Positions 14,566-52,970 of a stretch of DNA of 64,000 bases are shown piece by piece. Within the stretch, counting starts at the first letter, position 1; each line of letters opens with the position of its first letter. Both the position numbers and the translations under genes were made by a program. The notes beneath the pieces are model-generated. The model was not told where the DNA came from and made no database searches. It worked only from the letters and a program-made list of their open reading frames with translations. Source of the DNA: Tetracentron sinense (taxonomy: Eukaryota; Streptophyta; Magnoliopsida; Trochodendrales; Trochodendraceae); the NCBI GenBank assembly GCA_015143295.1, contig CM026553.1:3309912-3373911 (forward strand), given 5' to 3'.

Positions 14566-14739
14566 TCACCCCTGTGGGGCCAATGGTCTAAGTCTCTCGC
14601 CTTGGAGTCGCCGCATCCACGTCCTCTTGGCCGGAGGCTCAGCTACTGAATCCTCGTATGGTTCTTCCTCCCCGTAGTCCTCCTCAACCCAAGGACCCGG
14701 AGCACAAATGTCGAAAGGGACTCGTGTACCTGCCGACAT
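14566..14739 (-). CDS. LTR-borne acidic peptide (copy D)
   Basis: An ATG in the conserved word ATGTCGGCAGGT opens a 57-residue frame. It begins MSAG and contains VPFDICAPGPWVEEDY, an acidic run and a basic tail. A conserved ending, DLDHWPHRGDY, lies in a neighbouring frame, which suggests a late frameshift. If spliced from the donor at 15856, an upstream frame starting MCGARSSSWG would join in phase to GTRVPFDIC. There is no recognised family. Aromatic residues in acidic context would fit an activation or docking motif, but that is speculation. Confidence 0.55.
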   Translation of the reverse strand: MSAGTRVPFDICAPGPWVEEDYGEEEPYEDSVAEPPAKRTWMRRLQGERLRPLAPQG

Positions 14740-14929
14740 CAAAGTACAGCTGAGCATGGAATACTCAACGAGTACAAGCTCCTAGCTAACAATAATAATA
14801 ACGAGCAAAGCATCATATGCAAGTACTGGAAGGATACAGTTCATACTCATTTAAAACAACATCATATATAACCATTTATTAAATCACAACTCAAATCAAA
14901 ACCAAACCATATCTATAAAACATATGAGT

Positions 14930-15320
14930 CCTTCCATATTTCTTATGAGCCAGAGGTTAGTACCTGCACAACCGCTACCAACCTCCTTGACAGTACAATA
15001 CTTTTGAGTCTTTTCTTATGAGCCAGGGGTTAGCACCCGTACAATCCTGGGCTACCAACCCCCTTGAAAATTTCAACACTTTCTTTATGAGCCAGAGGTT
15101 AATCGACCTCCTTGACATTTCACATCTTTCTTATGAGCCAGAGCATCCGCACATCCTTGGGCTACCAACCTCCTTGATAATACAATACTCGTGGACATTT
15201 CTTATGAGCCAGAGGTTAGCACCCGCATATCCCTGGGCTACCAACCTCCTTGACAATACCATTCTCTTATGAGCAAGAGGCTAGCACCCTTTACCGGGCT
15301 ACCAACCTCCTTGACATTTC
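14930..15320 (-). repeat. Minisatellite of copy D, about 70-bp units
   Basis: About five or six units contain cttatgagccagaggttagc, then acccgcayatcc, then tgggctaccaacctccttga. GAGGTT and AACCTC arms with AGC/GCT inside form a hairpin in each unit. It occupies the same slot as the minisatellites of other copies but has unrelated sequence. Confidence 0.85.
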
Positions 15321-16162
15321 TCCATATACATGTGTGCTTGTGCATAGCTATTTGTGAAACATAATGACATATATTATCTGAGAAGTAACATATAGTATTT
15401 CAATTCTTATCACATTCATATGAGAATTTAACAAGCATATAGAAATATGGTCACAAAAGCCACCTTAGGGAAACTACATGATTCATGTTCCTCGAACTTC
15501 ATTTAACTCAAAGTATTTTAATTCATGCATTTTACCAAGCAAGTGGTATCCTACATTACCTTTAGTCCTTTAAACTCATAATTTCTTTTTCAAGCATTTC
15601 AACAAGCATCGCATGTGCATTCATTATGTGTACAATACCCTCCCACCATTTCCATCATTCAACACATCACAATATGGCATCCCATCGCCTCAATCCCCTC
15701 CTCAATCCACACATTCTACCATTTATTCATATTATCTTGTTTATGTTTTAAGTATTTAGCATAGATCAACACAAAGGATGAATGGGGAAGATACAACACA
15801 CCATATTCACAAGAAGTCTAAGTTATTACCAAGGTAGCTAGGAAGAGTGTACTAACCATGAAAAGGAGGGAGGAAACCCTTGTAAATGCCGAGGGAGACA
15901 CTGCCCCAGCTTGAAGAACGAGCTCCACACATGCTCCGCCTTGGATTTGAAGAATCCAAGCCTTTGGGGTGCTCTTGGGTTTCCAAAACCCTTGATTTGC
16001 TTCAATGATGCCCTAGGGTTTAAAACCCCTTTCTACTCTCCCCCTTTCTCTCAAAAACTCTAAGTATGATGAAATGAGGACCCAAGGCTCGTGCAAGCCT
16101 TATAAGCAAGGGTTGAATACTCCAAAAGATGAAAAAGCCCTTGATGAAATTTCTGTAAAACG

Positions 16163-16362
16163 CGATAGACCGATCGATTGGTGGTTAATACCAAGCGATC
16201 GGTTGCCTATCGAGCGACCGGTGTTCTTGACCGAGCGATCGGTCAAAAACATGCTCTCTCGAAAAATTTCTCATACAAAAAAGTTAACCAGTCGATAGCT
16301 ACCGATCGATCGGTTTTGGACTGGTCAATCTCTAGCTTGGACCGATCGATCCCTAGCGATCG
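16163..16362 (-). promoter_or_regulatory. U3 palindrome array of copy D
   Basis: About seven ACCGATCGATCGGT-like words lie 60-260 bp upstream of the TATA-like sequence at 16099-16106 in LTR sense. They are more diverged than in B. Confidence 0.55.
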
Positions 16363-17475
16363 GTGCTCTGCAGGTTTCACTATTTCGGCCATATCTTTTG
16401 ACTCGTTCGTTGAATTTTGACGATTCAACTTGCGTTGGATTCGTCTTTCGAAAAGGAACATTTTTGGCATTTCAGAATCTTCAATTTCTCCCTTATTTTT
16501 TAATTAGACTACGTGAAAGGCCAATTAGTTACGAAAGTGCTATTCATTAAGTATGGAAAAGTCCGGGGTGCTACATAACCCTTCTTATATACTACACATA
16601 GTTCGCTGCCATCCATTTTCTCATTAATCACCAATTCAAATGCCTGGAAGGCCCTTTGGCCAAGACAACACTATTCATCAACCACGTACAAAAGTTTCGG
16701 GGTTCTACATCCTCCCTCCCTTATAGAAATTTCATCCTTTCAATTAGGACGATACGAAATTAAGTAGGGGCACCTTTCCCATACTCAACCTTGAACTCTG
16801 TCACCTAGTTATACTAAAAGACATACTAATCCTTCATCAATCAACACAAGACTAGGCACTTGCTTGTTGGCAAAGCACTTAGGTTTTTTCATATTACTGA
16901 ACACCCACAAAAAGCAAGAAAATTTCATAACATAATATAGTATGTTTATACAATAGGCAACATACTGAAACACACATTACATCATCCTTTACAAAACCAA
17001 ATTTCTATCTCTTGGCATTCATGCAACATCATTAGGTGCCTGAGCACCTAGCCCTGATATAGCAAAGACTTGGCCCTTGTTAGCCTGACGTGGCAGTTGT
17101 ATGGGCTAGGGCCTCGAAGCTTGAAAAGACTCTTGCTGCATGGGCAGTTGAACTGGTTGCCTGCACCCCCAAGTGTCGCGACCCAAAACCCACCCTAGGA
17201 GTTAGAGTGAATCGTGGACGACTAAATCATGACTTACATGACTTGCTTGACAAACCACCTGCAAAACACCCACAGAGCATATACAATAGAGGATAACAGC
17301 GGAAGCATAACTATAAGACACAGTGGAAGTCTAACAAACCTCTAAGTATATACACTTGGTCCAAGTTTTAATACAAAGAAATCAAAACAAAGAAAGTGCG
17401 GACATGCCCGCCAAAATACATGGATATAATCACTCATGCTCACCCACAGCTAATCCACTCAGAATCTAACACCAC

Positions 17476-17595
17476 CTACTGATAACCCTCTACGGGAGGT
17501 TCCTCCAAAGGCTCCTCGACGTACTCCTCCTCCACCCATGGACCAGGAGCACAAACATCAAATGGAGCAGCAGCTCCCTCAGAACCTGCCGACAT
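17476..17595 (-). CDS. LTR-borne acidic peptide (copy E)
   Basis: This intact 39-residue ORF from ATGTCGGCAGGT begins MSAGSEGAAAPFDVCAPGPW and ends PPVEGYQ. About a quarter of its residues are Glu. Compared with copy G, codons differ mostly at third positions (GTT/GTC Val, TAC/TAT Tyr, GTC/GTT Val, GAG/GAA Glu), the pattern of selection on protein. The leader frame that would join by splicing is open for about 26 codons and then closed by TGA. Function unknown. Confidence 0.6.
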   Translation of the reverse strand: MSAGSEGAAAPFDVCAPGPWVEEEYVEEPLEEPPVEGYQ

Positions 17596-17884
17596 AAGAA
17601 GTACGGCTGAGCATGGAATACTCAGCGGGTACTAACTACTAACCAACAGTTATAGCAAGAGATAACAATGCATACCCAGGAAACAATATAGATATATATA
17701 TATGAATCAGGAACAATTAATATCATACAAAGAAATAAGAAAATTCATAATCATGCTTGTAGTTCATGAAAAGCCGATAAAATCCTTGAAAAACGCCATG
17801 CACTTGACTTGACTTGACTTAAAATACCCTTCGTGTAATTGGGAACTTATTTACCGTGTCATGCTTGTATCATGCTTGCTTATT

Positions 17885-18320
17885 CGGAATTTAAACATGT
17901 TCACATGCCTAGTTTCCGTTCATAGCCCATCGCAACTAGTATCCTATATGATGAATGATATGCCTAGTTGCCGTTCATAGTCCGTCGCAACTAGTACCTT
18001 ATATGCGGAATGACATGCCTAGTTGCCGTTCATAGCCCGTCGCAACTAGCATCCATGCAGAATGTGTATGACTAGTTGCCGTTCATAACCCGTCGCAACT
18101 AGCATCCATGCGGAATGATATGCCTAGTTGCCGTTCATAGTCCGTCGCAACCAGTACCCTATATGCAGATGGGTATGCCTAGTTGCCGTTCATAGTCCAT
18201 CGCAACTAGCATCCATGCGTGTCATGTCATGCCATGAGTGTCTTGAAATGCTATGCTATGCGTGTCATGCGATGCTATGCCATGCGTGTAATGCGATGCC
18301 ATGCCATGCGTGTAATGCGA
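17885..18320 (-). repeat. Minisatellite of copy E
   Basis: Six units of about 55-60 bp contain CTAGTTGC, a 15-nt loop and GCAACTAG, a perfect 8-bp stem in every unit. A second array of catgcgatgctatgc words follows at 18220-18320. Both lie in the slot between donor-like and acceptor-like sites. Confidence 0.9.
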
Positions 18321-19251
18321 TGGGATGGGAGACCCTTTCCTATGCGATGCATGATCATCTTGTCCTTGAAAAAAGTGGAGTGAAACATATCGTAGGATAT
18401 GCCCCACCTCTACATCTCGTCCTTGAAAACATCGGTAAATCACGTCGTTTCATGCCGTGCTCGTGTAATCGTGTACACACTTGCAATGGAAATTAAATAT
18501 GACGTTTTGGGGAATTCACAATACATTGCACATCACCATATATACAAGTAATAAATTAAACAATTTAGGGGAAGCGCGAAAACACACTACCATAACCCTA
18601 GCAATTTTCATGAATGTTTAAGCATGCAATTTCTTTATTTATTATTCATTTCATTCATCTTGGCATTTCATCAAACATGGTGTGTTCATTATTGATTTAC
18701 CCTACAACATGCTTTTCTAGATGGGTTTTACTCAAATCATGCATGTATGTTCATTATTGGAACAATGCCCTCCCCATTTTAATCATCACAACAAAACCAT
18801 TGGCATCCAATCGCCCATTCCATCTCCATTCACCATTCACAACCATCCATCTCATAGCACATGTGTAAATAAAGGAAAATAAAGGGAAAAGAGGAACTGT
18901 AACTAGGAGTGTAGCAAGAAGTACCGACCTTGATCAAGTGAGGAAGAAATCCCCTTCCAAAAACGACCGTGAGTTGCTGCCCTAGCTTTAGGAGATGCTC
19001 CTCACGAGCTTGTGCCTTGATCTTGAAGAAAAATGGGCTTGAGTTGAGTGTGGGTTCACAAACCCCTTGATTTCTCTCCAAAATGGGAACCCTAGGTTTA
19101 GGAATCGCCCTCTCCTCTCTTCTTATCTCCCAATCTCTCTAAGTGTCGAAATGAAGCCCTAAAGGCTCGGGTTAAACTCTTAAGGTAAGAGTGAACCGAC
19201 CAAAAGACCATAATACCCTTACTGAAATTTCTGCAAAAAAAAACGCGAGTA

Positions 19252-19437
19252 CCGAGCGATCGGTGTTAATGACCGATCGATCGGTTGCCTACTGATCGAT
19301 CGGTTTCATAACCGAGCGATCGGTTAAAATTTCACTCTCTGGAAAATTTTCCCATACAAAAATCTTGACCAGTCGATAGCCTCCGAGCGATCGGTTTTGG
19401 ACCGATCGATCGCTCCATGGACTGAGCGATCGGTGGT
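19252..19437 (-). promoter_or_regulatory. U3 palindrome array of copy E
   Basis: About seven ACCGATCGATCGGT or ACCGAGCGATCGGT words lie in two clusters separated by the conserved tctctggaaaattttcccat spacer, as in B, D, G and I. Confidence 0.6.
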
Positions 19438-20688
19438 CTGCAGGTCCAAACTGTTTTGGCCATAACTTTTGACTCGTTCGTCCGATTTTGACGATTCAAC
19501 TTGTGTTGGGTTCGTACTTCGAAAACGAACATTTTTGAAATTTCAAAATTTCCAATTTCTTCCTTATTTATTAATTATACCTCTTTAAAGGCAAAATGGC
19601 AACGAAAGTGTCATGCATTAAATGTGAAAAAGTCCGGGGCTCTACACCAAGACTGAGTCGGTGGTGGACAGCGAGGACAATCTCTAATCCAGTGCCCGTA
19701 GTTACTGCAATGGAAACAAACATCCGTGTGTGCTCGGCACTCCCCAACTCTATGCTTCCTCCCATAATGTGCACATACCTCAAACGTAGGTGAAGAAGAT
19801 TGCGCCTGCCGAGTGACTTGCGTAGTAGTAGGGAAAAGAGCTTGGGGTGTAATAGAAAGACTCTGCACCTGCGTATGTCCAGAGGACTGGTGTAGAGCCA
19901 TTCTAGCTCTCTTCTCCAGTTGTGTTGAGCCATTGGAGTGGCCTCTCAGTATTTCTCCCTCTTGCAGAATTCCTCTGAATTCGTTTTTGCCAATTGAGCC
20001 TTGTCCACAACCTTTGCATAGGTCTCATGCTTGAACATTGAGACCTTATCTTTGATGTAGGCCTACAATCCCCTCTCAAATTTCCTAGCCTTCATTGCCT
20101 CCATGACTATCAGGTATGGAGTGAACCTCGACAATTCAGAGAACTTGGCCTCATACTCAGACACTATCATGTTCCTTTGTTCCAAGGTAATGAACTCCAG
20201 TTCTTTCTTCTCTCTAACTCCTACTGGGAAGTATTTCTTGTAGAAAACATCTAGAAACTCTTCCCAAGTCCATTCTTAACTTGCTTAAGTCAAGTCCCTT
20301 GTTCTGATGGAGGATCTCCACCAGTGATCAGCCTCACCTTCCATCATAAAGGTGGCCCATGCAAATTTCTCTACTTCCATAGGCATCAAGATGGAGAAAA
20401 AATTCTCCAGCTGCCTAACCCATGCTTCTGTAACCAATGGGTCTATGCCACCATAGAATACCGGAGCCTCATCCTCCGAAATGCCTCTATCCCTATCTGT
20501 GCTCTATTAGGAGGAGTAGGGACTAGTGCTGCAGTAGGAGGAGTGGTAGGTTGCCTGGCTGTGAGCATAGCTAAGGTCTCAGTTATCGACTCTAAGATTT
20601 GTGTAAGGTCAGGTTGCTCATCCCCTACCGGAGCATCACCTCAATTTCCTTTAGTAGGGTAACCGCGACCCCGATTGCCACACCTCAT

Positions 20689-23773: not shown

Positions 23774-25185
23774 ATGAGGACACAAATAATGGACTGAGAT
23801 GGGTTAAGCTCACCCTAAACATATATTTTCCATAAACCCCTTAAGCATATGCATATAAGAAAAAACAATAGATTGGAACCAAGAGAAGTTCCACAAAGGA
23901 ATTCATTTAAATTTTCTTTTAAATACCAAGAAAAATTCCATGAAGGGAAATCATTTAATTTATAAGAATCAAGAGAAGTTCCATGATATTTCAAGTTGAA
24001 TTAAAGTATAACAACATAAAAGAGATATATCAAAATGATTCATGTATTTCATTTGTCAAAAAAAATTACATCCATAACATCCGTACATATATCAAATTAT
24101 CTCATCATCACATTTCTACACCATTAGATTACCATCACATCACATTCCCTTTTCTCCATCACATTGCATTCCCTATCTCCATCACATTCCTTTTCTCCCC
24201 CTTGTAAACATAAAAAAAATCAATAAGAGCAACAAAAATAAAAGAAAGAACAACCCCTAGAATAGTAGCTATGGGACTCTAAGAGGACTTCTTCTTCTTG
24301 TTCTTCTTCTTGATCTCCATGTACATGGAGTCTTCTTGACTGCTTGAGCTGACCATGGAAGCATCTGAACTGTCGGAGGAAGAACTAGAGATGAGGGTTG
24401 GATCTTTGTCTTCATTAGAGGAAGGATGAGAGATGATTGGTTCACCTTTAGAATCACCCTTAGAAGGGACTTCTTCTCTTTTCATTGGTTGTTTGCCTTT
24501 GTCTTGAGAGGAGAGCCTTGAGGGGTGCCGGAGGCCAAGCTCACCAAAAATTTGTTGATCTTCTTGAGCTCAGAGATAGCTCTCAAAATGATAGTGGCTG
24601 ACAAAGAGTCTTGTTCAGCCATATCCAAGAGGAGTTTACCTTGAGTCTTCAGTTGCAGAGCTGAGGACTCAACTTGACCCTGGATAACAGAGGCTGCCTT
24701 CCTAAGCTTGACAAATGCTTCCATCTGATCAGCTTCAAGCCGCTGAATTAGAGTAGTGGCAGTGTCAACTCTATTCTTAGTCACTGAAGTATCTATGTTG
24801 ACAGCTCCCAAGATAGAATCACTACCATCTAATCTCTCTCTCAATTCAGAATGCAGAGCAGCTATGAAAGACTCAACAAAGGAGATGTCGAGACCCAAGA
24901 CCCACCCTAGAAGTTAGAGTGAATCTTGGACGACTTATCATGACTTACATGACATGCTTGACAAACCATCCTACAAAACATACGGAGCATATACAATAGA
25001 GAACACAATAGCAGAAGCATAAACTAATCATGGCACAACGGAAGTCTAACAAAACCTCTATATATATACCTGTAATCCAAGTTTTGTACGAAAGAGAAAA
25101 CAAAATAAAGAAAGTGCGGACATACCCGCTAAAATACATGGGTATAATCTCTCGTGGTCACCCACACTCACTTAGAATCTACCAC

Positions 25186-25308
25186 CTAGTAGTAGCCCTC
25201 CACATGAGGCTCCTCAGCAGGGGCCTCCTCGACGTACTCCTCTTCTTCCCATGGACCAAGAGCACATATGTCAAAAGGAGCGGGTGCTCCACTAACACCT
25301 GCAGACAT
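25186..25308 (-). CDS. LTR-borne acidic peptide (copy F)
   Basis: This intact 40-residue ORF starts MSAGVSGAPAPFDICALGPW, continues EEEEYVEEAP and ends HVEGYY. It aligns without gaps to copy E over the first 28 residues. If the 1,072-nt intron 25299-26370 is removed, the open leader frame ending WRFSSSFQ joins in phase at a Gly codon. In that model translation would start in exon 1 and the MSA residues would be intronic. Which start is used cannot be decided from sequence. Confidence 0.6.
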   Translation of the reverse strand: MSAGVSGAPAPFDICALGPWEEEEYVEEAPAEEPHVEGYY

Positions 25309-26671
25309 CAAAAGTACACATGAGCATGGAATACTCAACGGGTACCAAATACTATCCAACAGTCATAGCATATACTAATGGGATATAAAGCGGAAGCAAT
25401 TCATATCATAACAAGAAAGTAGAACAGTTTATATTTCATGCTTGCAACACATCAAAATCGGAAAAGCTCTTGAAAACATCGTGTACTTGACTTGACTTGA
25501 AATACATCTTTCGTGCTTGAAAAACTTGTCTTTTCATGTTCTGTCTTGTTGGTCTTGTCGAGTCGTACTTGTCTTGTCATGCGTGTCATGTCGTGTCATG
25601 AAATTTAATGCTCATGCTTGCTTGCTTGACTGGAAAATAAACATGTTCATGCTACCTGTGAGGGAGGGTGGTTAAGAACCCCTTCTTCCTAAATGATATA
25701 CAACTTGTAAGGGAGGGGAAACCTCTTTTTAGTGAAAATGCATTGAAAGTAAACATGTATGGTTGGAGTCTTGCTTGGCATGTTCTTGTTCTTGTCAAAA
25801 ACGAGGCAAAACATATCTTAAGAAATGCCCAACCTCTATTTACCAACCCTTACGTTTGGCCTTGTCATTGTGTTTGTGAATCGAGAATAAAAACCCTTGT
25901 CTTGTAAAACACCGATAAACCATGTCATGCATGCCGTGCTCGTGAAGCCGTGTACATGCTTTAGCTTGTAATTAAACGTGACAATTGAGGTTCAACAATA
26001 CATGAACTAGCATTCATTTCAACTCATAAGAATATTCATGCCGTTATAGAAAGTGAATAAATTTATACAAGCATTTCTAGGACTAATTCTTCACCTTGGC
26101 ATTTCATCAAACACTTGGTGTGTACATTATGGTTAAAGCCTACATCATGCTTTTCTAGGTTGATTAATACTCATAGCATACATGTGTATTCATTATTGGT
26201 ACAATGCTCTTCCCATTTCATTCATCACAAGACATACACATGGGATCCATCGCCCATACCCAACCATCCATCTCTATCCATTCATTCCAACATATTATCA
26301 TGCTTAGAATTTTTGGGGAAAACCATAAAAGAGAATAATATGAACTAGGAGGGTAGCATAGGGTACCGACCTTGAAAAGATGAGGAAAACCTCCAAAACG
26401 TGCATGGAGTCATTGCCGAGCTTGAAGGAGGTGCTCCTCGAGTGCTTGAGGTTGGATTTGAAGAATCCAAGCCTTTAGAAGGATCTAGGGTTCTCAAACC
26501 CTTGATTTCTTGATAACCTGGGAGGAAACCCCTTTCTCCTCTCTTACTCCCTCTCAAAATGCAGCTAAGTGTATTGTGTGGGGACCCAAGGCTGGAGCAA
26601 GCCCTTATAGGCAAAGGTGGAATGCCCAAAAGACGAAAAAACCCTTAATGAAATTATGCAAAAACGCGAAA

Positions 26672-26822
26672 GGCCGAGCGATAGATGGTCAGGACCGAGC
26701 GATCGGTGTTTTTGACCGAGTGATCGGTTGAAAACACCATCTCTGGAATTTTTTCTCATACAAAAAAGTGAACCAGTCGACAGATACCGATCAATCAGTT
26801 GTGGACCGAGCGATCAGTTATC
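26672..26822 (-). promoter_or_regulatory. U3 palindrome array of copy F
   Basis: About five ACCGAGCGATCGGT-like words, partly decayed, lie 60-220 bp upstream of the TATA-like box near 26602-26611 in LTR sense. Confidence 0.5.
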
Positions 26823-29689
26823 TGTAAATTTTGCCACTGAGTCCATTTTCCACTCAATCCACTACTTGGACTCATCCCACTTCTGTTCTAACCTCTTCCA
26901 AACATGACTAGGACCTTTATAAGGCAATGGCATTTTAATAATTATTTTATTTAATTATTTTATGGTATTCTTGCAAAATTATCAAAGGTTTCCAAATTCT
27001 CATTTCATGGGAAATGGAGATTTCAAGGCATCATGCCTTGACACGCATTCCAAGACACATACAAAAGTTCCGAGGCTTTACAGGAGATCTTTTCTCTGAT
27101 TTCAGATCTAAAATCTACTGAGGACCCTCAAGATATGTCAATCAGTCTCGAACTTAAGTCTACATCCCAGAGACTTGAGCTTCTTGAGAATCCTGTCGCT
27201 CTCTAATCTCAGATTGAAAACTCAGCATCCCAGAGCTCAGAGAGTCAAGTTTCCCCATCATAAAGCCGAGAAGATCATCATGAATAGAGGGCCTATGAGG
27301 AATCTCAGACCAACCTCAAAATGAGGAGGGGAAGCCCTGAAGGGCGAAGAGATAGGAGAAAGGGGAGGAGCTCTAGCTGGAGACAGAATAGGAGGATCAG
27401 AAGGAGGGGAATGATCCAAAGCTGGATCAAAAGAATATGGAGCAGAGGAGGGTGATGGAGCAGTAGATGTAGAAGGTTGAGACGCAGAGGTCTTGGGAAG
27501 CCATTTCTGCAGATCCTTATCCCATTGATATCCCATCTTAACAAGAGTGGTAGGACTGTAGATATCATAATGGGAAGGATAAATAACCTTTAAGATATCA
27601 AAAGAGAGTTCAAAATGTTTGAAGATATGAGTTAGGAGCTGGCCATAAGGCAGATAGGAATTTTTCTTTGGGACACATTCAACCATGTTATGGAAGATAA
27701 GATAGCAGAGATCAAATGGTTGAGAGGTTAGAACACACCAGATCAAGAAAACATCAAAATAGGATAGGTAATTTCGGTTACCTTTCCTTGGAAGAATGTT
27801 GTAGGATATAATGTGATGAACCAGTCTGGCATCTAGTGTGAGACTGTTAAGAGAAGGAAGGAAAGCTTGAGAAATGTCCTTATTGGAGCACATAAGCTTT
27901 AAAGCTTCAATAAGGTCGAATCCAGGATGGATTGGCCATTCTTTGGAGGCGAACATTTCAATGTTCCCAGTAAGAAGAGCAAGAATTGAAGTAATTTCTT
28001 CAATGGACAGAGAGATGTCCTTTCCACAAACAAAGGAGGTGAAAGAATTTTTGGAAGGACTGAAATGAAGATGGGAATAGAAGAGTTTCACGAGTTTAGG
28101 ATATAAAGGTTCCTTGAATTCGAGGAGATGGAGCCATCCCAGAGCTTTGAAGAGCTCACAGATGTGACCTAAGCCCCATTCTTTTAGAACAGTAGAATCA
28201 AGAAACTTACCGAATACTATATAGGACGGGAATGGATGATATCTCTGTATCTCTTTGCAGCCTTCCTTGCCTTGAGCATGAAGCTTAAGGTTCTTATGCA
28301 CACCTTTGCCTTTTAGGGCTTGACCATTCTTCAGCATTCTTTGTTCTCACCATTGGGGATACGGTTTGAAATCAATTGGAGTAGATTATAAAGGTTTTGG
28401 AGAGATTATGGAGGTTTGGAGAAGATGAAATAAAGTAGAGAAGGTTTTGGAGGGAAAAGGCGAATACGGGTAGGAACATAGAACATGTGTTTAATTTTAA
28501 TGTGTTTAAGCCTGCAAATTTAATGCTAAAAAGTGTAGATTTTAAAACCCAAATAAAACACTTAATTTAAGTCGTTTTTGAGGTTTAATTGCATGAAAAG
28601 TGAGATAAACAAAAAGTAGCAAATGAGTCTTAAAAAAAAAAAATCAGCACCAGCGATCGATCGATCGCCCAAAATGCCGTTCGGTGGCGGGTTTGCGCGA
28701 TCTCACTTATTTTGAGTCCCTAGGGCTCCCAATGTTATAAATACCCTTTATATTCATGAGTTAAGGGTTTCAAAAGGTTTCTAAAGCTTTCTAAACCTAA
28801 AAGAGAGTGAGAGAAGGGGTTTTTGAGAGATCCAAGAGGAAAGATCAAAGGTTTTGCAAGGAAGAAGGGTGAAAAAGCTTAGATCCATCCCATTCGCAAG
28901 CGCGTGATCATAGGGAAGCGATCAGGAGAGGTAAATATAACTTCCTTACTATCAATATAATAATTTTGATATGAATATTATGAAATTGATAGATCTAAGG
29001 CAAGAATGAACAAGATTAAGCATGCTTGTGATGTTTTAAATCATGATTTCCTTATAAAAATATATATGATAATTTGAGAGTGTTTTAAATCATGAATTTC
29101 TGATGGAAAAATATATATGATGTTAGAGAGCATTTTAAATCATGACCTTCTTATGGAAAATAGATATGATGCGTAGGAGGTAATTTAAATTATGATTTTC
29201 TTGTGAAAATTATTATGTGAGAGATGTTTCTTATGATTTTATTATTCATATCAACAAGGGAAAAGGGAATGAAATTGTGGTGTATGTATGGTGAATGGAA
29301 GAAAGGATGATGATTGGAATTGATGGAATGATTATTAGGTTGCTCTAAAACTAGGATATGTTATGAAACTAGGGTTCCGTGAGATTTATTTGATTAAAAT
29401 TATGTAATAAAGATTGATGCATGATAAATGAAATTGTCCTTTATTTTTATTATCGAAAACTTGAAAAATCTATATTTCATAGTGATTATTTATGAGAAAT
29501 TCTGTATGTTTAAATTAGTGCATGATCTACAATAATCATTATTGCACTGACACTGATTCACGAAATTAAATATAAATAAGCATGAGAATAAACAAGATGA
29601 CAAGTAATATGCAAGTACACAAGGATACAAGCATGATGTATGATTGAGTTTTGCACTGACCGAGTACCCACAAGCCTATGATCAAGGTA

Positions 29690-30101: not shown

Positions 30102-30113
30102 CGATAACTGTTG

Positions 30114-30254
30114 TTGTCGGTAGGTTCTAGATTTGACATCTGTGCTCCAGGACCTTGAGAAGAGGAAGAGTACGAGGAGGAAGAGGAAGAGCCAATAGGT
30201 GATTACCCCGAGGGTGAATGGAATTTGGACCATTGGCCGTATACTGGAAATTAG
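30114..30254 (+). pseudogene. LTR-borne acidic peptide (copy J, one stop)
   Basis: The 46-codon frame contains SRFDICAPGP, then a TGA where other copies have the invariant Trp, then EEEEYEEEEEEP and the ending NLDHWPYTGN. The usual ATG is TTG here. FDICAPGP and the .LD.WP ending match copies D, A and K. Confidence 0.55.
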
Positions 30255-32958: not shown

Positions 32959-33263
32959 TGTCGCGACCCGAGACCCACCCTAAGAGTTAGAGTGAATCTT
33001 GGACGACTAATCATGGCTTGCATGACTTACTTGACAAACCAACCTGCAAAACCCACAGAGCATAAACAATAGAGGATAAAAACAGCGGAAACATACTCTA
33101 ACTTGGTACAGCGGAAGTCTACCAAACCACTATGTACATACATACGTAAATCCAAGTTTGAACAAAAAGGCAACCAAAAGAAAGTGTGGACATGCCCGCC
33201 AAAATACATGGATATATCTCTCTCAACTCACCCACAACTATATCACTCAGAATCTACTCCCAT

Positions 33264-34795: not shown

Positions 34796-34982
34796 ACCGA
34801 TCGATCGGTGGTCGATACCGAGCGATCGGTTGCCTACCGATCGATCGGTTTCATAACCAAGCGATCGGTTAAAAATCTACTCTCTGGAAAATTTTCCCAT
34901 ACAAAAATCTTGACCAGTCGATAGCTACCGATCGATTGGTTTTGGACCGATCGATCGCTCCATGGACCGAGCGATCGGTGGT
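34796..34982 (-). promoter_or_regulatory. U3 palindrome array of copy G
   Basis: About seven ACCGATCGATCGGT or ACCGAGCGATCGGT words lie in two clusters around the conserved spacer, as in copy E. Confidence 0.6.
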
Positions 34983-35857
34983 CTGCTGGTCCAAACTGTT
35001 TTGGCCATATCTTTTGACTCGTTCGTCGGATTTTGACGATTCAACTTGCGTTGGGTTCGTACTTCGAAAAGGAATATTTCTGATGTTTTGGAATTTCTAA
35101 TTTCTTCCTTATTTATTAATTGTACTACTTTAAAGGCAAATTGGCTACACTCAAAAAATTCGGGGCTCTACACTCAAAAATATTGATTTTGTAAAAACTT
35201 TCTTCACGAAAGTTGTAAATATTTTTGACAGCTTCGAAACGATGTACTGATGGACCTAAATTGGATTACGGTCACAAAGTTATGGCCAAAATACCTAAAC
35301 TGTATCGATTCTCCAAATCAAATACAAATCCTAAAATCCATGAATCAATTCAAATCGAAATAAGCTTTAATCTCCAAGAATGCTTAAGCAAGGGTGTCAA
35401 ACACCATGGGATTTATTAATTAACATTTAATAAATAAAATCCCATTAATAAATATTGGCCGAAATATCAATGAGTATCTAATTGGTCTAAATCAAAGGGA
35501 AAACTTGCCCAGGGCTCTCAAGAATAAATTAAACAACTTAATTTAATATAAAAATGATCTCTAAATTCTTAAAGGCTTTAACCAAATTTGTATCTCTATA
35601 TACCTATCCCTATTTGAATTAAGAGAGGTTTTGAAATCATCCAAAACTAAAATTAGTATCACATTAATTTCTAAGGGCTTAATTACTCCCTCAATAACTG
35701 GAGGGGGATCCATTAACCCTAACAATAATTATCACATCATCAAGATATTCAATAATCAAAAAGATTCAATCCATAGGATGACCGAAATTCATAGGGGAGG
35801 TAATCTTGATATAACTATTGATTAAACTCAATAAAATAAAAAAGAAGCATAGCCAAG

Positions 35858-35869: not shown

Positions 35870-36896
35870 CTGAAAGTATGCCTCTTCTTAATCTTAGAAA
35901 AACAGTTCCTGGGGGGTATACATCGAATCCCAAGATCTAACTAAAATTCTAATTGATTTTATTCAATGAAGGTTCAAATAACATTCACCTTTGCAACTTT
36001 GAAATTGTTAAGTCAAATCCACGTTAGAATAGTATTCGTAAAACTTCACAAGTGTCAAGTCTCCTTCGCGATCCACGGGAACTTTCTTTTTTCCTTTAAA
36101 GCTCTCTAATGGAAATAGCCCTTCCAAAGTCCAGCTCTAGGATCTTGAACTAAAGATCCTTTCTTGATGAAGAAGAATGGTTCTTCTTCTTCTTGATTAT
36201 CAAACTAGAAAACAAGAGAGAAGAGAAGGGGGAGGTGTGTAGAACCCCGGAATTTGGATTCACTGTTCATGTGAAACGGACAGTGAATCACTTGCATAGT
36301 AGATGAAAAGGCCTAAAGCCTTACATGGGTATATGGTGTGGGGAGAGTGAAGTGAGGACTTACGTGTGCATGTTGAGTCTCTAAACAAAAATATGATAAT
36401 ACTCTAAGTATATAAATTCATAGGGTGTAAAATACCCTAAGAGTGAATGTAGGACCCCGAGAACCAAGTTCACAATGTTGTGAATAGTGCCGAGGGCACT
36501 AGTATTGGAAGGGCCAAAGACCTTTATTATAAGTTGGGTTTGGTCAATGAGGGAATTCTATGTTTAGCGTGTGTGTTATGTGTATGCTAAGACCGTGATG
36601 AAAGAGTGGAAACTGTAACGACCCCAAAATCCCCCAAGGCTAAAATAGGACTTTAGAATCGTCACATTACTTAACCTACTTAAAATCCATGCATACAAGG
36701 CTTATTACACGAGTCTTCAAAAATAAGAGTAATAAAATTCCGATATATAAACTATAACCAACCTGCACAAGTCTATGGTCAACATAAACAACCTACTATA
36801 AACCAACAAGTACGAAAAATACAACAATAAAAGTCTACTGAGCAAACATCCTCTAAAAGTCTATTACAAAACTCTCTCAACTAAACAAAGCATAAA

Positions 36897-37016
36897 CTAA
36901 GAGGTATAGACACCCAAGCCTCCGGCTCCTTCCTCAGAAGGCTCACCTTCTCCTGCTTCCTCGATGTAAGCTTCCTCAATCCACGGCTCCGCCGTGTACC
37001 CCTGCTCTAAACCTGC
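36897..37016 (-). CDS. LTR-borne acidic peptide, exon 2 (copy I)
   Basis: The frame reads AGLEQGYTAEPWIEEAYIEE and continues acidic and Gly-rich to VYTS. It keeps PW[VI]EE..Y.EE although its surroundings are barely alignable. There is no ATG at the usual place, and TTGGATTTGGCAG|GT looks more like an acceptor. The leader frame ends in TAA in the required phase, so this copy could not encode a spliced product as it stands. Confidence 0.5.
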   Translation of the reverse strand, partial: AGLEQGYTAEPWIEEAYIEEAGEGEPSEEGAGGLGVYTS

Positions 37017-37027
37017 CAAATCCAAGA

Positions 37028-37054
37028 ATTTTATATACACAGTGTATATAAAAT
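37028..37054 (-). other. Perfect hairpin of copy I (different sequence, same position)
   Basis: Arms ATTTTATATACAC and GTGTATATAAAAT flank a single base, giving a perfect 27-nt inverted repeat. It replaces the CTGAGTATTCCATGCTCAG hairpin of other copies at the same place before YAG|GT. Confidence 0.7.
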
Positions 37055-37289
37055 CCAACCAACAATAATAACATACCTACACTTAGTTAGAAACATATCC
37101 AATAGCATAATAACATAATCATAGTGCGGAAGAACGTGTGCGCATATACATCATATCACCACCTTGACTCGTGTACTTGTGTGAATCTTAGACTTAGAAG
37201 ACAATACACTTGTGAGTTGCTTATGCTTATGAGACCACGTGCTTGTGAGATGCTTATGCTTATGCACTTATTCAGATCATACAATGATT

Positions 37290-37475
37290 TGACATGCCGT
37301 TCTTGGCGGATACGGACCATGTCTAAGAAGTCATATAGTTGGCATGCCGTTCTTGGTGGATACGGACCATATCTAAGAAGTCATATAGTTGGCATGCTGT
37401 TCTTGGCGGATACGGACCATGCTTATGAATCAAATGTAACTGACATGCCGTTCTTGGCGGATACGGACCATGTCA
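37290..37475 (-). repeat. Minisatellite of copy I, about 55-60 bp units
   Basis: Four units contain gacatgccgttcttggcgga followed by tacggaccatg. CCGT and ACGG arms can pair within each unit. Same slot as in other copies, different sequence. Confidence 0.85.
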
Positions 37476-38439
37476 TGCTTATGCTAATTTAGAATGTCAT
37501 ACGTATGCCATGCTCATGCTTGTGGTCCACATGTGTGACTTGTGAGACTCTTTTCTTAACATACACGTGCATATGTGCTTAAGTGTCGAAATTAACATTC
37601 GAGTTAGTAATTGCTTAGATTCCAATCTCCCACCATGGAAACTCCACTATACTGTCCCATACCAAATAGTTAGAGAATTCCCGGTTTGAGAGATTTTCCT
37701 CTAAGTTCTTATCGTCCCGACTATCAATTTCCATGCAAGTAATTAGACATACTTAACAAATAATCGCATATACATATCTTATCATAAATCATATCACAAT
37801 TCATAATCAATTTACCATCATTTCATAAGAGTATAATAGCATTTATCCTCTCAAGCATTTTCACAAACACCTTGAGTACGCATAATATGAATCCATTGCC
37901 CTTCTACATTTTCAAGCATTCATCAAACCATAATCCATCCATACAATCCATTCACCATTCACATCCACATATTAATCTCATCCTCCATACATTTCCCATC
38001 CTCCATATATTCTATCCACATTCAAATCCACATTTCCATCCACATTTCCATCAATAATTAGCTTACTTCATAGAAAATTTGGGAAAAATACATTTAATCT
38101 CTATTCTATCATTTCTATCATATTAATATTCACAAAACATTACAATAGAGTTGATTAGGATACTATATCGACCTTAGGAATCCTTCCATTGGATTCAAAA
38201 CGCTCCCGAGGTGATTTAGGGAAGCTTTGAGGACGATCTCCAAGCTTTCCTCTCAATCTTCTTCTTCTCCAAGCAACCCTTCTCCCAAAACCCTAGGTTT
38301 TCTCCCCCTTTTTGCTAAATTAGGTTAGAAATAGGTAGAGTATTCTAATACCCCGAAATAGGGTCCCTATTTATAGCCTCAAGGTTTGAGAACCAAAATA
38401 CCAAAAAGCCCTTATAAAAATTCTGTCAAAAACACGAAA

Positions 38440-38632
38440 GACTGAGCGATCGGTGGTTATGACCGAGCGATCGATCGCCTACCAATCGATCAGTGTTTAT
38501 GACCGGGCGATTGGTCAAAAACACACTCTCTGGAAAATTTCCCCATACAAAATTTTGGACCAGTCGATAGCTACCGATTGATTGGTTTTGGACCGATCGA
38601 TCGCTACTTCTGACCGAGCGATCGGTGCTTTG
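38440..38632 (-). promoter_or_regulatory. U3 palindrome array of copy I
   Basis: About seven ACCGATCGATCGGT-type words lie 65-260 bp upstream of TATA 38367-38375 in LTR sense. Confidence 0.6.
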
Positions 38633-39204
38633 CAGATTTCGACTCATTTTAGTATTTTAGCCATAACTTTTGACTCGCTCTTCAGATTTCGAAGATTCAA
38701 CTTGCGTTGGATTCCTCTTTCGAAAACCAACATTCTTGGCATCTTAGAATTTCCAAATTCCACTTTATTTATGGACCAAAAACTCTCCAAAGTTGACTGA
38801 TCTGCAATTCCATCAGACAAAACCTCAGAAAACCCATTTTTGACTTAGCTTAGACTAAAAATAAGGAAAAATATTAAACATGAACCTCAAAGAGGGTTCC
38901 AATACCTTTCTAATGGTTCAAGAATCACTCAATTCTAATAAACGGTGCCAAAACTAGAGCTTCCTAAAGTTTAGAGTGTGATATGACATTCCTGAACTAG
39001 AAGTTTGATTAAACCTTAATCACACTACACGTATTAGATATTCAATACAATAAACATTAAAACATCACAAGAACTATAATACCCCTAATGCAATGCAATA
39101 AAAACATGAAAAAAAGATTCGGGTCTCTACAGAAACACTCTAAGTTGTCTAAGTCGAGAGTGGAAGCACTCTAAGGAAGAAGAAAATAAGCAAATAGGGA
39201 AAAT

Positions 39205-41821: not shown

Positions 41822-41832
41822 GCCGTACTTTT

Positions 41833-41946
41833 ATGTCGGTAGGTACACTATACGACATATGTACACCGGTCTCTTGGATCGAGGCAACTCAGGGAGAGCA
41901 GGAGGTTATTCGGATTGTTAGCCAGACATTAGGGGTTAGCCTATGA
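41833..41946 (+). CDS. LTR-borne peptide (copy H)
   Basis: This 37-residue ORF begins MSVGTLYDICTPVSWIEATQ. YDIC.P..WIE matches the core of the other copies, but the acidic tail is lost. The leader frame (FFIKFQVLDQGIWSFQ) is open in the phase needed for splicing, although the donor GT is AT here. Confidence 0.5.
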   Translation: MSVGTLYDICTPVSWIEATQGEQEVIRIVSQTLGVSL

Positions 41947-47451: not shown

Positions 47452-49728
47452 TGTTAAACATTATGCCCTAAAAAATCATTTAGATTGTAAGATTCTTATT
47501 GATTAGATTAATAAAGACATCTTCTTTATCTATTGTGAATTCATTATGGGTAATTGACCATGATCATGAGATGATCTATACGATATGAGATATCGATAAA
47601 GGTCCCTAGGATATATTGTAGGAAAGCTATATGATAGGTATTAGACTCTCATAGGCAGATATAGCTTTCCAGTTTCTTATACCTTATAGAGTCATAGCTA
47701 TGGATGAAGCTGGGCGCTTCACTCATATAGCTGCCACAATGCTAAGAAGTTCTCAATGATTAAGACGTAGTTTTATCTCAATAGTGGAGACTACACATCA
47801 GCATATGGGTGCTTAAATGTACACTGACTGATTGCATACAATGAAAGACCTCTTGCATAAACATACTATCAGATAAATGGTCTCTCATTGAATAGTTTTG
47901 ATAATCCTTAGATCTGATGAGTTCATTTATAACTGAGCAGTAATCTGACTGTTTTGATTTCACCTAAGTACTCTTTACCTGAGGGACTACGATATGGTGA
48001 CAGTTGGATAATCAGAAAGCTGTTCGAGTCATGATGAATTTCAAACAAGAAATCCATGCTCATTAAATTGAGAGATTATCCAAGTTTCGGCTAAGACAAT
48101 CAATTAAGCTTAAATCCTGTACAGGTGATTTTGAAATCAAATAAGTTTGAAATATATTTTTAATAAAATATATTGTACGTAACAAAAGTTTTTCTCAAAA
48201 TGTTTTACTTGAGAAATAGTTTCTCATGGCTTAACCAAATGTCTTGGAAACTCGGATAATGTACAATGGGCTATGAGTTAGATAGTATATTAATCTCGAA
48301 GACCCATTAGGGATAATGTTATTGGAAGGATAAATCGAATTAAAAAGTTCATGTGTCGGGATCGTTTATTGGTTAATGTTCTTACACTGGGATTCAATTG
48401 CAACATGGATATCTCACGTCACTTGCAATTCCAATGTCATTCCTATTTAAGGGTTAATGGGATAACATCGGGTAAGCTAGGGTTAGAATATCCCAGAGCA
48501 ATATGTGGAGATGCTCATAAAATAAATACAAGCTCGAATAATAGATTAAATGTTAATCTATAATTTAAAGGATTAAATGTTAATCTTTAATAAATAGATT
48601 AAATGTTAATCTATGGTTTAGATTATATGTTAATCTAAATTAAAGGATAATAATAATAATTATTTAATTAACCCAATATAAGGGGATATGGGTTTGACCC
48701 ATATCCATAAAAGTCCTTTAAAATGGACCTTATTGGTGGGCCCAAGCCCATGGGATAGACTCCCTAGGGTGGGCGCCCACTTCTAATTCCCTAATGGTAA
48801 ATAATTATTAATTAATTAGTCCTTATCTAATGGGATTAGATGCCTTACTTGAAAGACAATAATCAAAGAGATAAGAATTAAACCTTATCCTTAATCAAAC
48901 TTGGAGCTCAAGACTCCCTCTATCTCACGCCCCCCTCTAGCTCACGCCCACCTTGATGGTGTTTCTAATTGGATTAGAATCTCTAATTATTAGGGAGTTG
49001 GTTAGAATCCCTAAATTCTAGGGAATTAGTTACATCCCATTAATTAAGGAATCCTTTTAGGAAAAGGAATCCTAAATTAGAAAGTTCATTATAACTAATT
49101 AGTTATGGATAAACATGGAGTTTAATTAATGATAAGAGTTATCATTATTTAGTAACTCTTAGGGATAACTATCATTATTAGATAATGATAGGGATAACCA
49201 TCAAGTTGTGGATAAGATCCACATCTATATAAGCCAACACCCAAACCATGTGGGGTTGTAGATTCATTATTTTTCTCTAAAAATTTCTTAAGCTATAGCT
49301 TGGAGCCCAAGATTTATCTCTTGGATTTTTGTGAGCTTAGGGAGAACACCCTTCAAGGGATTTTCGTAGGGTAGTCTTAAGACCCTATATGATTTTGTGA
49401 GTTAGGGTTTTGAACCCTAAGGGATATTGTCGCGACCCAAGACCCACCCTAGGAGTTAGAGTGAATCTCGTATGACTTATCATAACCTACATGACATGCT
49501 TGACAACCATCCTGCAAATCACATGGAACATATACGATAAAGGAAAAAATAGCGAAAGCATAAACTAACATGGCACAGTGAAAGTCTAACAAAGCCCTCT
49601 ATGTATATATATATAATCCAAGTTTTGTATAAAAGGGAAATCAACAGAAAGAAGGTGCGGACATGCCCGCCAAAATACATGGGTATAAAATCTCTCGTGC
49701 TCACCCACACTCACTTAGAATCTACCAC

Positions 49729-49851
49729 CTAATAATGGCCCTCTATATGATGCTCCTCCACAAGGACCTCCTCGAAGTACTTCTCTTCCACCCAAGGACT
49801 AGGAGCACAAATGTCATACGGATCCGTAGCTCCCTCAGTACCTGTCGACAT
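49729..49851 (-). CDS. LTR-borne acidic peptide (copy L)
   Basis: This intact 40-residue ORF starts MSTGTEGATDPYDICAPSPW, continues VEEKYFEEVL and ends HHIEGHY. It is the same length as copy F and shares the YDIC/FDIC, PW and Y positions. Differences include conservative replacements (F/Y, V/I). Confidence 0.6.
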   Translation of the reverse strand: MSTGTEGATDPYDICAPSPWVEEKYFEEVLVEEHHIEGHY

Positions 49852-51109
49852 GAGATATACGGCCGAGCATGGAATACTCAGCGGGTACCAAATACTATCC
49901 AACAATCATAGCATAATAATAACAAAATAAAGTAGGAAGAAGTTCATATCATAACAGAAAGGTAAGTAGTTTATATTTCATGCATGCATCACATCAAAGC
50001 CAGGAAAACTCTTGAAATCATCGTGTGCTTGATTTGACTTAAAATACTCTTTTCGTGCTTGAAAACTTGTCTTGTCATGTTCTATCTTGCTTGTCTTGTC
50101 GTGTCATGCATGTCATGTCATGAAATTAAAATGTTCATGCTTGCTTGCTTGGAATTTAAACATGCTCATGCGCTTGGGATGTTAGTGCCCTTGAACAACT
50201 TGAAGGGAGGGTGGTGTAAAACCCCTATTTTGCGAAATATGGAAAATTAAACTTGAAAGGAGGGAAGTGTAAACCCCATTTTTTTAAAAATGTAATAAAG
50301 TAAATATGCATGCTTGGAGGCACACTGTAGAGCCCCGGAATTTGAGTTCACTGTTCATGTGAATAGTGCCCTTACATGATGTGTGTAAAGGCCTAAGGCC
50401 TTCCTTGGTGTTCCGGTTATTATGGTGAGTCAAGTGAGGGTTTAGGTATATGTTTTGAGTCTTAAAGAGAGAGTATAAATATACTCTAAGTGGGTAAAAG
50501 AAAGGGGTATAAAATTCCCTAAGTGTTTAATGAGTTATAAGTGAATAGTGCTAGTGCGCAAGGCATAAAGAGGCCAGGGCATGTCATGCATGTCGGTGTG
50601 AATTTCATGATCACCGAGGTGGGTTAAAAACCTATGAGAACAAGTTATGAGGTGTGAGTGGGGTTTTGGAACCGAGGGAAAAGAGTGTGAAAGCACTTAA
50701 AGTGTTCTAGGTGGTGAAGAGGCAAGTTTTGACATTTCCCTCAAATTCAAGAAGCTCTAGTTTGATCACCGATGACCGGAATCGAGTGATTCATGAATTT
50801 ATGGAAAGGTATTGGAACCTTATTCAAGGTTTATGTTGATCACTTTCCCTGATTTTTAGTCGGGATTGAGTCAAAAGTCCGATTTCCAAAGTCGGGACTA
50901 TTGAAAATCTGGGCTGTCGAAACCCATTTACAGACCAGTCAGCTTTGGAGCCATTTTTGGTAAAGTAAAACTCAAAATTTGGAGTTGTACAAAACATGAA
51001 AATTGTTTCCCTTTAAAAGAAGAATCCAACACAAGTTGAATCATCAAAATCGGACCACCGAGTCAAATTTTATGGCCAATTTACCGAAACGTGTTTTTGC
51101 AGAAAAACT

Positions 51110-51205
51110 CGCTCGAGCGAGATCCAACCCGCTCGAGCGAGATAGACCAAAACTGAATTTTTGAGTCTCGGGAGCAACCCACTTGAGCGAGATGGAAGCC
51201 CGCTC
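51110..51205 (+). promoter_or_regulatory. U3 palindromes of copy K (CTCGCTCGAGCGAG type)
   Basis: Four CTCGCTCGAGCGAG or CCGCTCGAGCGAGAT words, one decayed, lie 54-150 bp upstream of TATA 51259-51266. The word is unrelated to that of L, which surrounds it. Confidence 0.6.
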
Positions 51206-51324
51206 GAGCGAAATCACCCAGAAATATTTTTTTTAGGGTTTTTCTCAACCCAAACACCTATAAATACCCCATTTTTGGGGGACCAAGTTTTCTAACACCT
51301 AGAGAAGAGTATTTTGAGAGAAAA

Positions 51325-52970
51325 ATGAGGAAACTTAGGTTTCCAAAAAGGGGGCTTTGTGGTAGATCAAGGAGGAGCTCGAATCATCACTCCACGAGCT
51401 TGGGATTCACGTTTACAAGCTTCCTCAACCTTGGATCTCGTCCTCACACGCCATTGGAGCTTGGATCTTCATCCACAAGCTTGAGTTTCACTTCTACAAA
51501 CTTCCTCAAGCTTCTTCAAGTATTGGATCAAAGAGATTTCATCCCAAAAGGTAGATACACTCTACTAGGTTCTAATTTCATAAACCATTATTGATAAATA
51601 TGATTTTCTTGACAAATATAGATATAGATAGCCTTATACTTGTGTAAATCAACTTTCCTAGCCATTGATTTCATGGATCCCTTTCTATATCAAGATAAAA
51701 TCCTATGAATGATGATGTGAGTTAAATGTGATGATGCTATGCTTTTAACCAACAAATAAAAGATGGTATTTATTGAGATGTTTTATATGTTAGTATCCAA
51801 AGATGAAAAGCATGTTAAAAGCCACAAGTTTTGGGAAAAACAAGTAGAAAAACCTATTTTCAATGTGATTGGATGATGTAATGTTATTGTATATGGATTA
51901 TTGTAATGAGTGAATTATGTTAAGCATTAGTCATATGATCATATGCAAAGGGTCTCCTTTAAATGTCTACTATGTTATATCACAATTGCTACACGGACAC
52001 ATATGCATATGCATGATCGAGTTTTTCTATATTATGGGTATCCAAAAGAAGAAGTACATGTATATAAGATGCAATATAAGAATAAGAAGAAGAAGAGTAT
52101 AAGATGCAAATGAACCACATGAAAAGTATAAAATGCAAATGAACCAAATGAACATTACAAGAACCAAAAGAAGTATAAGAAGAGTACAAGAAGTAAAAGA
52201 TGTATACGAAAAGTATAAGAAGCACAAGATACATACGGAAAGTACAAGAAGCACAAGATGTATATGGAAAGTACAAGAAGCACAAGATGTTACAAGAAAT
52301 ACAAGAAGATGGAAAGTATATGGAAAAAGCCGACGGGGATGCGACGATAGCAGGCTGCCTGAAAGGGAAAGGGATACTGGCATCGGACTCCGATGATAGC
52401 AGGCCACCCGGAAGGGAGATGGATACTGGTCGTCTACCCCGAAGGTAGCCGAAGGTGAGGAGAACATTAGGCCACCCAGCTTACGTGGGTACGGGTACTA
52501 GTTGTCCAACTCCGGAGGTAGCAAATGATGAATACCAAGGTATTTTAAATACCCGTACAGGATAATAAAAGATAAAAGCCAAGGTATTTAAATACCCGTA
52601 TATGCAAAGGTACAAGATGATAAAAGATGACAAGAAGATGTTTTAGACAAAAGATGATAAAAATATGTTTTCCGATAGTATTTTCTGAGATATATGCACA
52701 TGATATGATTTTGTTTTCCTCGCTCTGATTTCAGGAATGCATGTGAGATGATTAAACTGTGATATATATGTTGTATTCTTGTTTATGATATTACGATCTA
52801 GTGGTTTGTATACGCTGAGTATTCCATGCTCAGTCGTACATATTATGTCGGCAGGTCCTATTGATGCACATACTCAGGAGCCGTGGGTCGAGGAGTATAT
52901 AGAGGAGGAGTCCACTCCTGCTGAGCTTCAGGAGCATCAGAGGTTGCTCGAGAGGTGGCCTCATCTTTGA
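51325..52970 (+). CDS. Predicted two-exon LTR gene (copy K)
   Basis: Model: exon 1 51325-51550, intron 51551-52854, exon 2 52855-52970. Exon 1 opens with ATG 59 bp after the TATA box and stays open for 75 codons (starts MRKLRFPKRG, Ser/Thr/Leu-rich, ends QRDFIPK). The donor is AAAAG|GTAGATA and the acceptor TCGGCAG|GT. The junction recreates a Gly codon and continues in frame as PIDAHTQEPWVEEYIEEE to ERWPHL. Alternatively ATGTCGGCAGG at 52845 starts a 41-residue ORF with the same C-terminus. The exon 2 frame is supported by conservation across copies. Exon 1 is supported only by openness and signal placement. Confidence 0.45.
52330..52600 (+). repeat. Minisatellite-like block of copy K
   Basis: Units of about 45-55 bp carry gatactgg...gatagcaggccaccc and hairpin cores CATCGG-act-CCGATG and CTACC-ccgaa-GGTAG. 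It is more degenerate than in other copies but lies in the same slot before the hairpin at 52815-52833. Confidence 0.65.

Follow-up and report, generated by a model that had tools for sequence, protein, structure and literature searches.

The superantigen of mouse mammary tumour virus is encoded by a retroviral gene inside a long terminal repeat (LTR). Conserved-peptide upstream open reading frames (uORFs) of plant mRNAs are often most conserved near the C-terminus. Both can be compared with a 64-kb stretch of the Tetracentron sinense genome (assembly GCA_015143295.1, contig CM026553.1, positions 3,309,912 to 3,373,911; here called the window). The window contains twelve divergent copies, A to L, of one LTR repeat type with a common anatomy. 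Inside these LTRs lies a sense-strand open reading frame (ORF) for a conserved acidic peptide. The frame is supported as one held by selection on the protein while the neighbouring DNA changed. It resembles the superantigen gene in being an LTR-encoded protein gene and differs from it in position, size and host. It resembles the uORFs in being a short ORF upstream of a main ORF, an order that is known here on DNA only, and in its conservation at the amino-acid level. The uORFs belong to host mRNAs and not to LTRs, and here conservation falls on a central core and on a C-terminal motif.

Extra ORFs have been described in plant LTR retrotransposons. Additional ORFs are placed between pol and the 3' LTR (PMC7264820), and extra ORFs are counted from 250 codons (PMC6317226). 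Like these, the peptide ORF is an element ORF beyond gag-pol, a class whose function is mostly unknown. It differs in lying wholly inside the LTR and in its length of about 35 to 57 codons; a survey with a threshold of at least 250 codons would therefore miss it. The literature consulted also covered LORE1 (PMC2832683). For BARE, PMC3735527 describes RNA pools in which a splice favours Gag-only RNA and divides translation from replication. The likeness lies in splicing of retrotransposon RNA to separate translation from replication; here the predicted intron is inside the LTR and concerns a leader ORF. The initial annotation knew of no description of the peptide, and none of an ORF of such kind inside plant LTRs was found in literature searches that covered openly licensed papers.

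The peptide frame is present in eleven of the twelve copies, at the places and in the frames that had been listed. H, J and K are read on the plus strand, and A, B, D, E, F, G, I and L on the minus strand. The peptide consists of MSAG, a variable stretch, the core [FL]D[IV]CAP.PW[VE]EE.Y.EE and an acidic linker. Several subfamilies carry [DN]LD.WP near the C-terminus, and E-type peptides stop short of the WP motif. The 20 frames listed have net charges of -3 to -14. The peptide is probably disordered; its structure prediction was of low confidence (mean pLDDT 67.2, pTM 0.18), with no secondary structure reported.

The C-terminal motif is real. In copy D it had been noted in a neighbouring frame, and that shift looks like a private frameshift near the end of the D copy. 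Five D-family relatives were fetched. LDHWP remains in frame in L035, L036 and L037; L033 reads LDHCP, also in frame, and in L034 a stop comes after LNH.

Codon changes in the core are largely synonymous. Across 17 core codons of the eleven window copies, gap-free except for one codon in K, the mean pairwise differences at codon positions 1, 2 and 3 were 0.278, 0.256 and 0.549. Third positions thus vary twice as much as first and second positions. Column permutation gave p = 5e-5 (1 of 20,000), or 1e-4 with copy C added. The ratio of nonsynonymous to synonymous differences (pN/pS) was 0.336 in the peptide frame versus 1.158 and 1.552 in the other two frames. For E, F, G and L alone it was 0.177 versus 0.878 and 1.546, with periodicity at p = 0.016.

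Thirteen copies from outside the window were analysed in the same way. Eleven lie within the adjoining 200 kb and two at further loci, and all were found by a DNA profile, not by reading frame. The profile had 38 matches, of which 25 were used (12 from the window and 13 others). The remaining 13 were near-identical E-type copies in L001-L011 and were left out of the diversity tests; one of them, in L007, is copy E of the window. The thirteen outside copies differed by 0.303, 0.235 and 0.521 at codon positions 1, 2 and 3 (p = 6e-5), and by p = 9e-4 the periodicity was retained when four E-like copies were removed. Their pN/pS was 0.333 versus 0.983 and 1.154 in the other frames. Copy C, whose frame is broken, was left out of the 24-copy core tests. 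With a tree whose sole input was the sequence upstream of the core, the changes at codon positions 1, 2 and 3 numbered 55, 43 and 104 (p = 6e-5).

Along five aligned LTRs, codon periodicity is strongest in the peptide ORF, which holds the top three of 118 windows; none was found in exon 1 or in the downstream stretch. Equal conservation of the three frames or of the flanks, named beforehand as the pattern that would speak against a protein, was not observed. Codon periodicity and a pN/pS below 1 in one frame only, our criterion for a protein-coding gene, were both found. The phase is also fixed. The core starts 5, 8, 14 or 23 nt past an acceptor-like AG|GT junction, always 2 modulo 3, in all 24 copies tested; the offset was read by eye for n12b, n13, n16a, n16b and n29, and C, which does not fit, was left out. 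The earlier observation that length differences are multiples of three agrees with this offset. A conserved acidic peptide under protein selection inside these LTRs is supported.

Related copies lie elsewhere in the same genome. A 165-nt query from the exon-2 part of copy E had 40 scored matches at 98-100% in the 1.16-Gb assembly, E itself included. The D peptide had 25,307 first-look candidates. The best 150 were scored (itself included), and 14 of these carry stops. The search was by protein similarity and scoring was limited to the top 150, which biases this estimate of intactness. Among the same 150 are eight same-strand pairs 6.4 to 7.5 kb apart, like the two LTRs of one element. Stops and pairs were counted by eye, and both the E-type and the D-type matches are the best-scoring ones, not a census.

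Outside this genome one relative was retrieved. For 16 peptides searched against 5.77 billion proteins (1418 candidates), P0019 was the sole match at E up to 10. It contains 47 amino acids (E 1.1e-3) and reads ...LDQCAPVPWVEEEYVEEPAEDLPTEDDYHPDQWPYPAH, with the core and the C-terminal WP motif as in the peptide. Compared singly with a D-type peptide, it aligns over 41 columns at 46% (E 1e-7). An earlier protein search gave 96 candidates, none at E up to 1. The search with 16 peptides reaches only relatives with exact shared words. The database includes annotated plant proteins, which suggests that annotation of the peptide is uncommon. Pfam gave no match for two peptides, and PDB sequences gave none (best E 0.81). 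Two DNA patterns had no match in IMG/VR; by protein, 11 stretches there fit a pattern and none was confirmed. Rfam at the gathering threshold and a tRNA search gave no result.

Upstream of the peptide, the LTRs encode what appears to be a spliced leader. TATA-like boxes precede exon 1 in several copies. Exon 1 is poor in AUG: 18 copies of 170 nt contain 8 ATG versus 21.3 expected, and none of 300 shuffles was as low. It ends in a GT donor in 17 of 18 copies and in AAG|GT in 15 of 18. The predicted intron that follows spans 750 to 1343 nt in the six copies measured. It is fast-evolving and contains subfamily-specific tandem repeats. These include a 53-bp unit in C (12395-13036) and H (41044-41449), and other units were seen by eye in D (~14930-15320) and E (~17900-18320). 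In the complete element L010, intron 1 contains 72 ATG in 1331 nt versus 26.5 expected.

The far end of the intron was followed in 30 copies (five D-family loci, 12 copies from the window and the 13 others). There a TAG in a U-rich tract (29/30 by eye, all but I) precedes a hairpin, a start codon and then YAG|GT (28/30). Identity between D and the E group is highest in the hairpin and start region (0.82); U3 reaches 0.78, and the stretch just upstream has 0.34 to 0.54. The hairpin pairs in 94.7% of 132 cells in 11 copies, and three pairs are altered on both sides. Copy I, which has lost the hairpin, was left out. J-type copies have a second possible hairpin, of the CCGATGAC/GTCATCGG type, directly before YAG (L012:9022, L013:4673, window J 30080-30123). 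It varies between copies, and it was folded for J and placed by eye in the others.

An in-frame AUG with no intervening stop lies upstream of the junction codon in 25 of the 30 copies. Its position is 9 nt upstream in 20 copies, only 18 nt in two and only 27 nt in three. The start codon is most likely the one just upstream of YAG|GT. Nine of 11 copies have a further acceptor-like YAG|G close to the LTR end, 67 to 109 nt before it (e.g., E 17174-17260). I has one at 149 nt and J one at 113 nt in a different context. A second leader intron near the LTR 3' end is possible.

The peptide ORF belongs to a complete element. L010 contains, in order, a 5' LTR (141-2579), a primer binding site, gag, reverse transcriptase, RNase H, integrase, a sub-threshold chromodomain and a 3' LTR (from ~7702). 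The domains matched in order are PF03732, PF00078, PF17917 and PF17921. The rve match is below the cut-off, and pol has one in-frame stop. Both LTRs of L010 encode the peptide, with the ORF upstream of gag on the same strand. The primer binding site, TGGTATCAGAGC, which is of the tRNA-Met type, lies four bases past the 5' LTR in L010 and in L009, a shorter two-LTR copy with a 5-bp duplication. LTR-LTR identity is 96.8% in L010 (2199 aligned columns) and 97.4% in L009. Ahead of gag, L010 has a further donor-like GTAAGT and an acceptor-like CTCAG, the latter ten bases before the gag AUG.

The family is Ty3/gypsy. Named gag relatives come from Melia, Musa, Rhododendron, Acorus, Prunus and Arachis. 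A chromodomain match (PF00385) lies at the expected place with E 1.6e-4 and 22.0 bits, below the cut-off of 25.1, and the family is probably a chromovirus. Full Tekay LTRs of beet measure about 2.6 to 3 kb (PMC3605345). The window LTRs, at 1854 to 2875 bp, overlap these lengths, which is weak evidence for a Tekay placement.

We consider, with moderate confidence, that each LTR encodes a translated leader micropeptide, possibly switched by the YAG|GT acceptor. Here we infer transcription, splicing, translation, acceptor choice and function from the features above. Transcription from the LTR promoter would produce the AUG-poor exon 1. Splicing would then take out the intron of ~0.75 to 1.3 kb, which is very AUG-rich in the one complete element examined. 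The next exon would present the hairpin, the start codon and the ORF of the acidic peptide. Use of the U-rich acceptor upstream of the hairpin would retain the start codon, and use of the conserved YAG|GT, ~10 nt past it, would lose it. Acceptor choice may in this way select a peptide-making or a gag-making leader. The switch is attractive because the two acceptors would differ in keeping the AUG, but it is unproven. The peptide probably acts as a short linear motif. It might work in trans, with Gag or a host factor as its binding partner, or restrain the translation of gag while still nascent.

A more far-reaching proposal is put forward only tentatively, and we regard it as rather unlikely. 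Here the LTRs would be self-contained spliced micropeptide genes, each with a promoter, an intron, a hairpin-gated start and an ORF. Solo LTRs would be spare copies, and acceptor choice would decide between peptide and Gag. The peptide would be a trans-acting accessory factor, with a role likened to that of retroviral accessory proteins.

Several observations weigh against the leader micropeptide. Among the eleven copies with the frame, it is open through the core in ten (in A, up to the window edge), J has TGA at the core Trp position, and H keeps the motif only partly (YDICTPVSWIEATQGEQ). C, the twelfth copy, gives the peptide no support, as its frame is broken by a stop six codons past the junction. 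Outside the window, n14 has a stop in the core and the n16 pair a partial motif. Some decay is expected, since solo copies evolve without constraint. A, B, I, J and n26 have no in-frame AUG, and AUG contexts appear weak by eye. In 12 of 30 copies the first AUG is the one in the hairpin, outside the peptide frame, and the peptide start would have to be reached by leaky scanning. YAG|GT (28/30) is kept better than the AUG (25/30), which would also suit an acceptor whose use leaves the AUG out. The splice sites were assigned visually from homologous positions. Hairpin covariation is modest, because shuffled columns reach the pairing in 7/500 and the number of two-sided pairs in 34/500. L009 keeps GTAAGT but has CTCAAG, not CTCAG, before its gag-like ATG. 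The outside relative is a single match at E 1.1e-3, on a 753-base public contig.

The frame could instead be a coding exon of a longer spliced protein that starts in exon 1 or in an internal gene spliced into the 3' LTR. The initial annotation wrote of an exon 2, an idea that is partly supported: the AAG|GT-type donor and YAG|GT are conserved. YAG|GT is kept even in the five copies without an in-frame ATG, and the junction-to-core phase is fixed. The exon 1 side of that idea did not hold. Exon 1 has no coding signal, the junction has stops in L and I, and seven copies share no in-frame AUG, so the peptide frame cannot be entered from predicted exon 1 and coding through it is rejected. A peptide added as a tail to Pol by splicing into the 3' LTR was also considered, but visual inspection of the pol end (L010, L011) gave no convincing donor in frame. 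That 25 of 30 copies have an in-frame AUG close to the junction also speaks against a longer protein. A longer protein is unlikely.

It is less probable again that the ORF acts only in cis as a uORF, with its translation tuning gag and any amino-acid sequence sufficing. Its place would suit such a role, since the LTR promoter precedes it and gag follows in the same orientation; other short AUG-started frames in the leader would suit it too. Selection at the amino-acid level across the core argues against it, and so does a C-terminal motif common to distant subfamilies and P0019. The nascent-peptide form of the idea may hold and is part of the leader micropeptide explanation.

GAGGAG, a known type of splicing enhancer, is frequent in the second half of the core, which the acceptor-like YAG|GT adjoins. 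The purine-rich GAG/GAA stretch might accordingly be an exonic splicing enhancer, with the acidic peptide as a by-product. An RNA motif predicts no three-base periodicity, but periodicity is found in the E-rich half of the core (23/15/46 tree-based changes at codon positions 1, 2 and 3) and in the E-poor half (32/28/58), each significant (p = 0.002 and 0.004). The other frames also have pN/pS of 0.98 to 1.55 in the 11- and 13-copy sets. We regard an enhancer as very improbable. A relic of a captured host gene fragment, conserved only through young copies, is scarcely credible: some copies are nearly identical, but subfamilies are deeply diverged (terminal branches up to 0.69 in the upstream-sequence tree; pS 0.77 to 0.79 while amino acids are kept), and none of 16 members has a Pfam match.

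The coordinates are collected in Table 1. Eleven copies have their 3' end in the window and could be tested; A is cut by the window edge. Eight of the eleven, namely B, D, E, F, G, I, K and L, have TG..CA ends and an exact 5-bp target site duplication (TSD) without an internal region, so these are solo LTRs; the other three are C, H and J. LTR K is nested inside LTR L. In many of the LTRs, U3 contains 10-bp palindromes that precede the TATA-like box (A 1373-1525, C 13988-14201, E 19274-19412, G 34798-34957, K 51110-51210). The core sequence of the palindromes depends on the subfamily. B, C, D, E, G, I, J and L have CGATCGATCG, K has three occurrences of CGCTCGAGCG, and CGGTCGACCG is present three times in A and once in H. 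F has none of the three. These palindromes look like exchangeable operator boxes.

Other repeats were also retrieved from the window. Direct repeats at 44682-46014 and 57178-58508 share 88-92% identity and are spaced 12.5 kb apart, and a copia-type gag fragment lies at 56141-56728. Together they are possibly one copia element split by LTR L, which is itself split by LTR K. A 222-aa ORF at 4632-5300 (minus strand) has a sub-threshold match to the Plant mobile domain (PF10536, E 0.0026). Tandem repeats lie at 6136-7403 (unit ~177 bp) and 2158-2972 (unit ~20 bp).

Table 1. Positions in the window of the LTRs, peptide frames, hairpins and predicted introns.
Feature	Copy	Coordinates	Strand	Remarks
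Solo LTR	B	7510..9363	-	TSD TAGGT
Solo LTR	D	14287..16575	-	TSD GGTTA
Solo LTR	E	17174..19646	-	TG..CA ends, exact TSD CTTGG
Solo LTR	F	24886..27082	-	TSD TCTCC
Solo LTR	G	32959..35172	-	TSD TTGAG
Solo LTR	I	36614..39131	-	TSD GTTTC
Solo LTR	K	50326..53200	+	TSD CACAC; nested in L
Solo LTR	L	49428..54496	-	TSD ATATC; split by nested LTR K
Peptide frame	A	2..108	-	cut by window edge, no in-frame ATG
Peptide frame	B	7814..7947	-	no in-frame ATG
Decayed ORF	C	12234..12263	-	stop six codons past junction
Peptide ORF	D	14566..14739	-	
Peptide ORF	E	17476..17595	-	MSAG...GYQ stop
Peptide ORF	F	25186..25308	-	
Peptide ORF	G	33264..33371	-	
Peptide ORF	H	41833..41946	+	core only partly kept
Peptide frame	I	36897..37012	-	no in-frame ATG
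Peptide frame	J	30124..30254	+	in-frame TGA in core, no in-frame ATG
Peptide ORF	K	52845..52970	+	
Peptide ORF	L	49729..49851	-	
RNA hairpin core	A	130-148	-	
RNA hairpin core	B	7970-7988	-	
RNA hairpin core	C	12276-12294	-	
RNA hairpin core	D	14750-14768	-	
RNA hairpin core	E	17607-17625	-	
RNA hairpin core	F	25320-25338	-	
RNA hairpin core	G	33383-33401	-	
RNA hairpin core	H	41804-41822	+	
RNA hairpin	I			lost
RNA hairpin core	J	30080-30101	+	placed by hand
RNA hairpin core	K	52815-52833	+	
RNA hairpin core	L	49863-49881	-	
Predicted intron 1	D	14730..15856	-	ATG|GTTAGT to GGCAG|GT; prediction only
Predicted intron 1	E	17586..18928	-	AAG|GTCGGT to GGCAG|GT; prediction only

LTRs are usually annotated as non-coding control regions, and here an ORF selected as protein lies inside them. 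Small element genes may have been missed elsewhere because surveys require long ORFs. The peptide ORF is a testable candidate for the separation of RNA for translation from RNA for packaging in plant Ty3/gypsy elements, or else for an accessory factor. Solo LTRs, too, may be small genes that are expressed.

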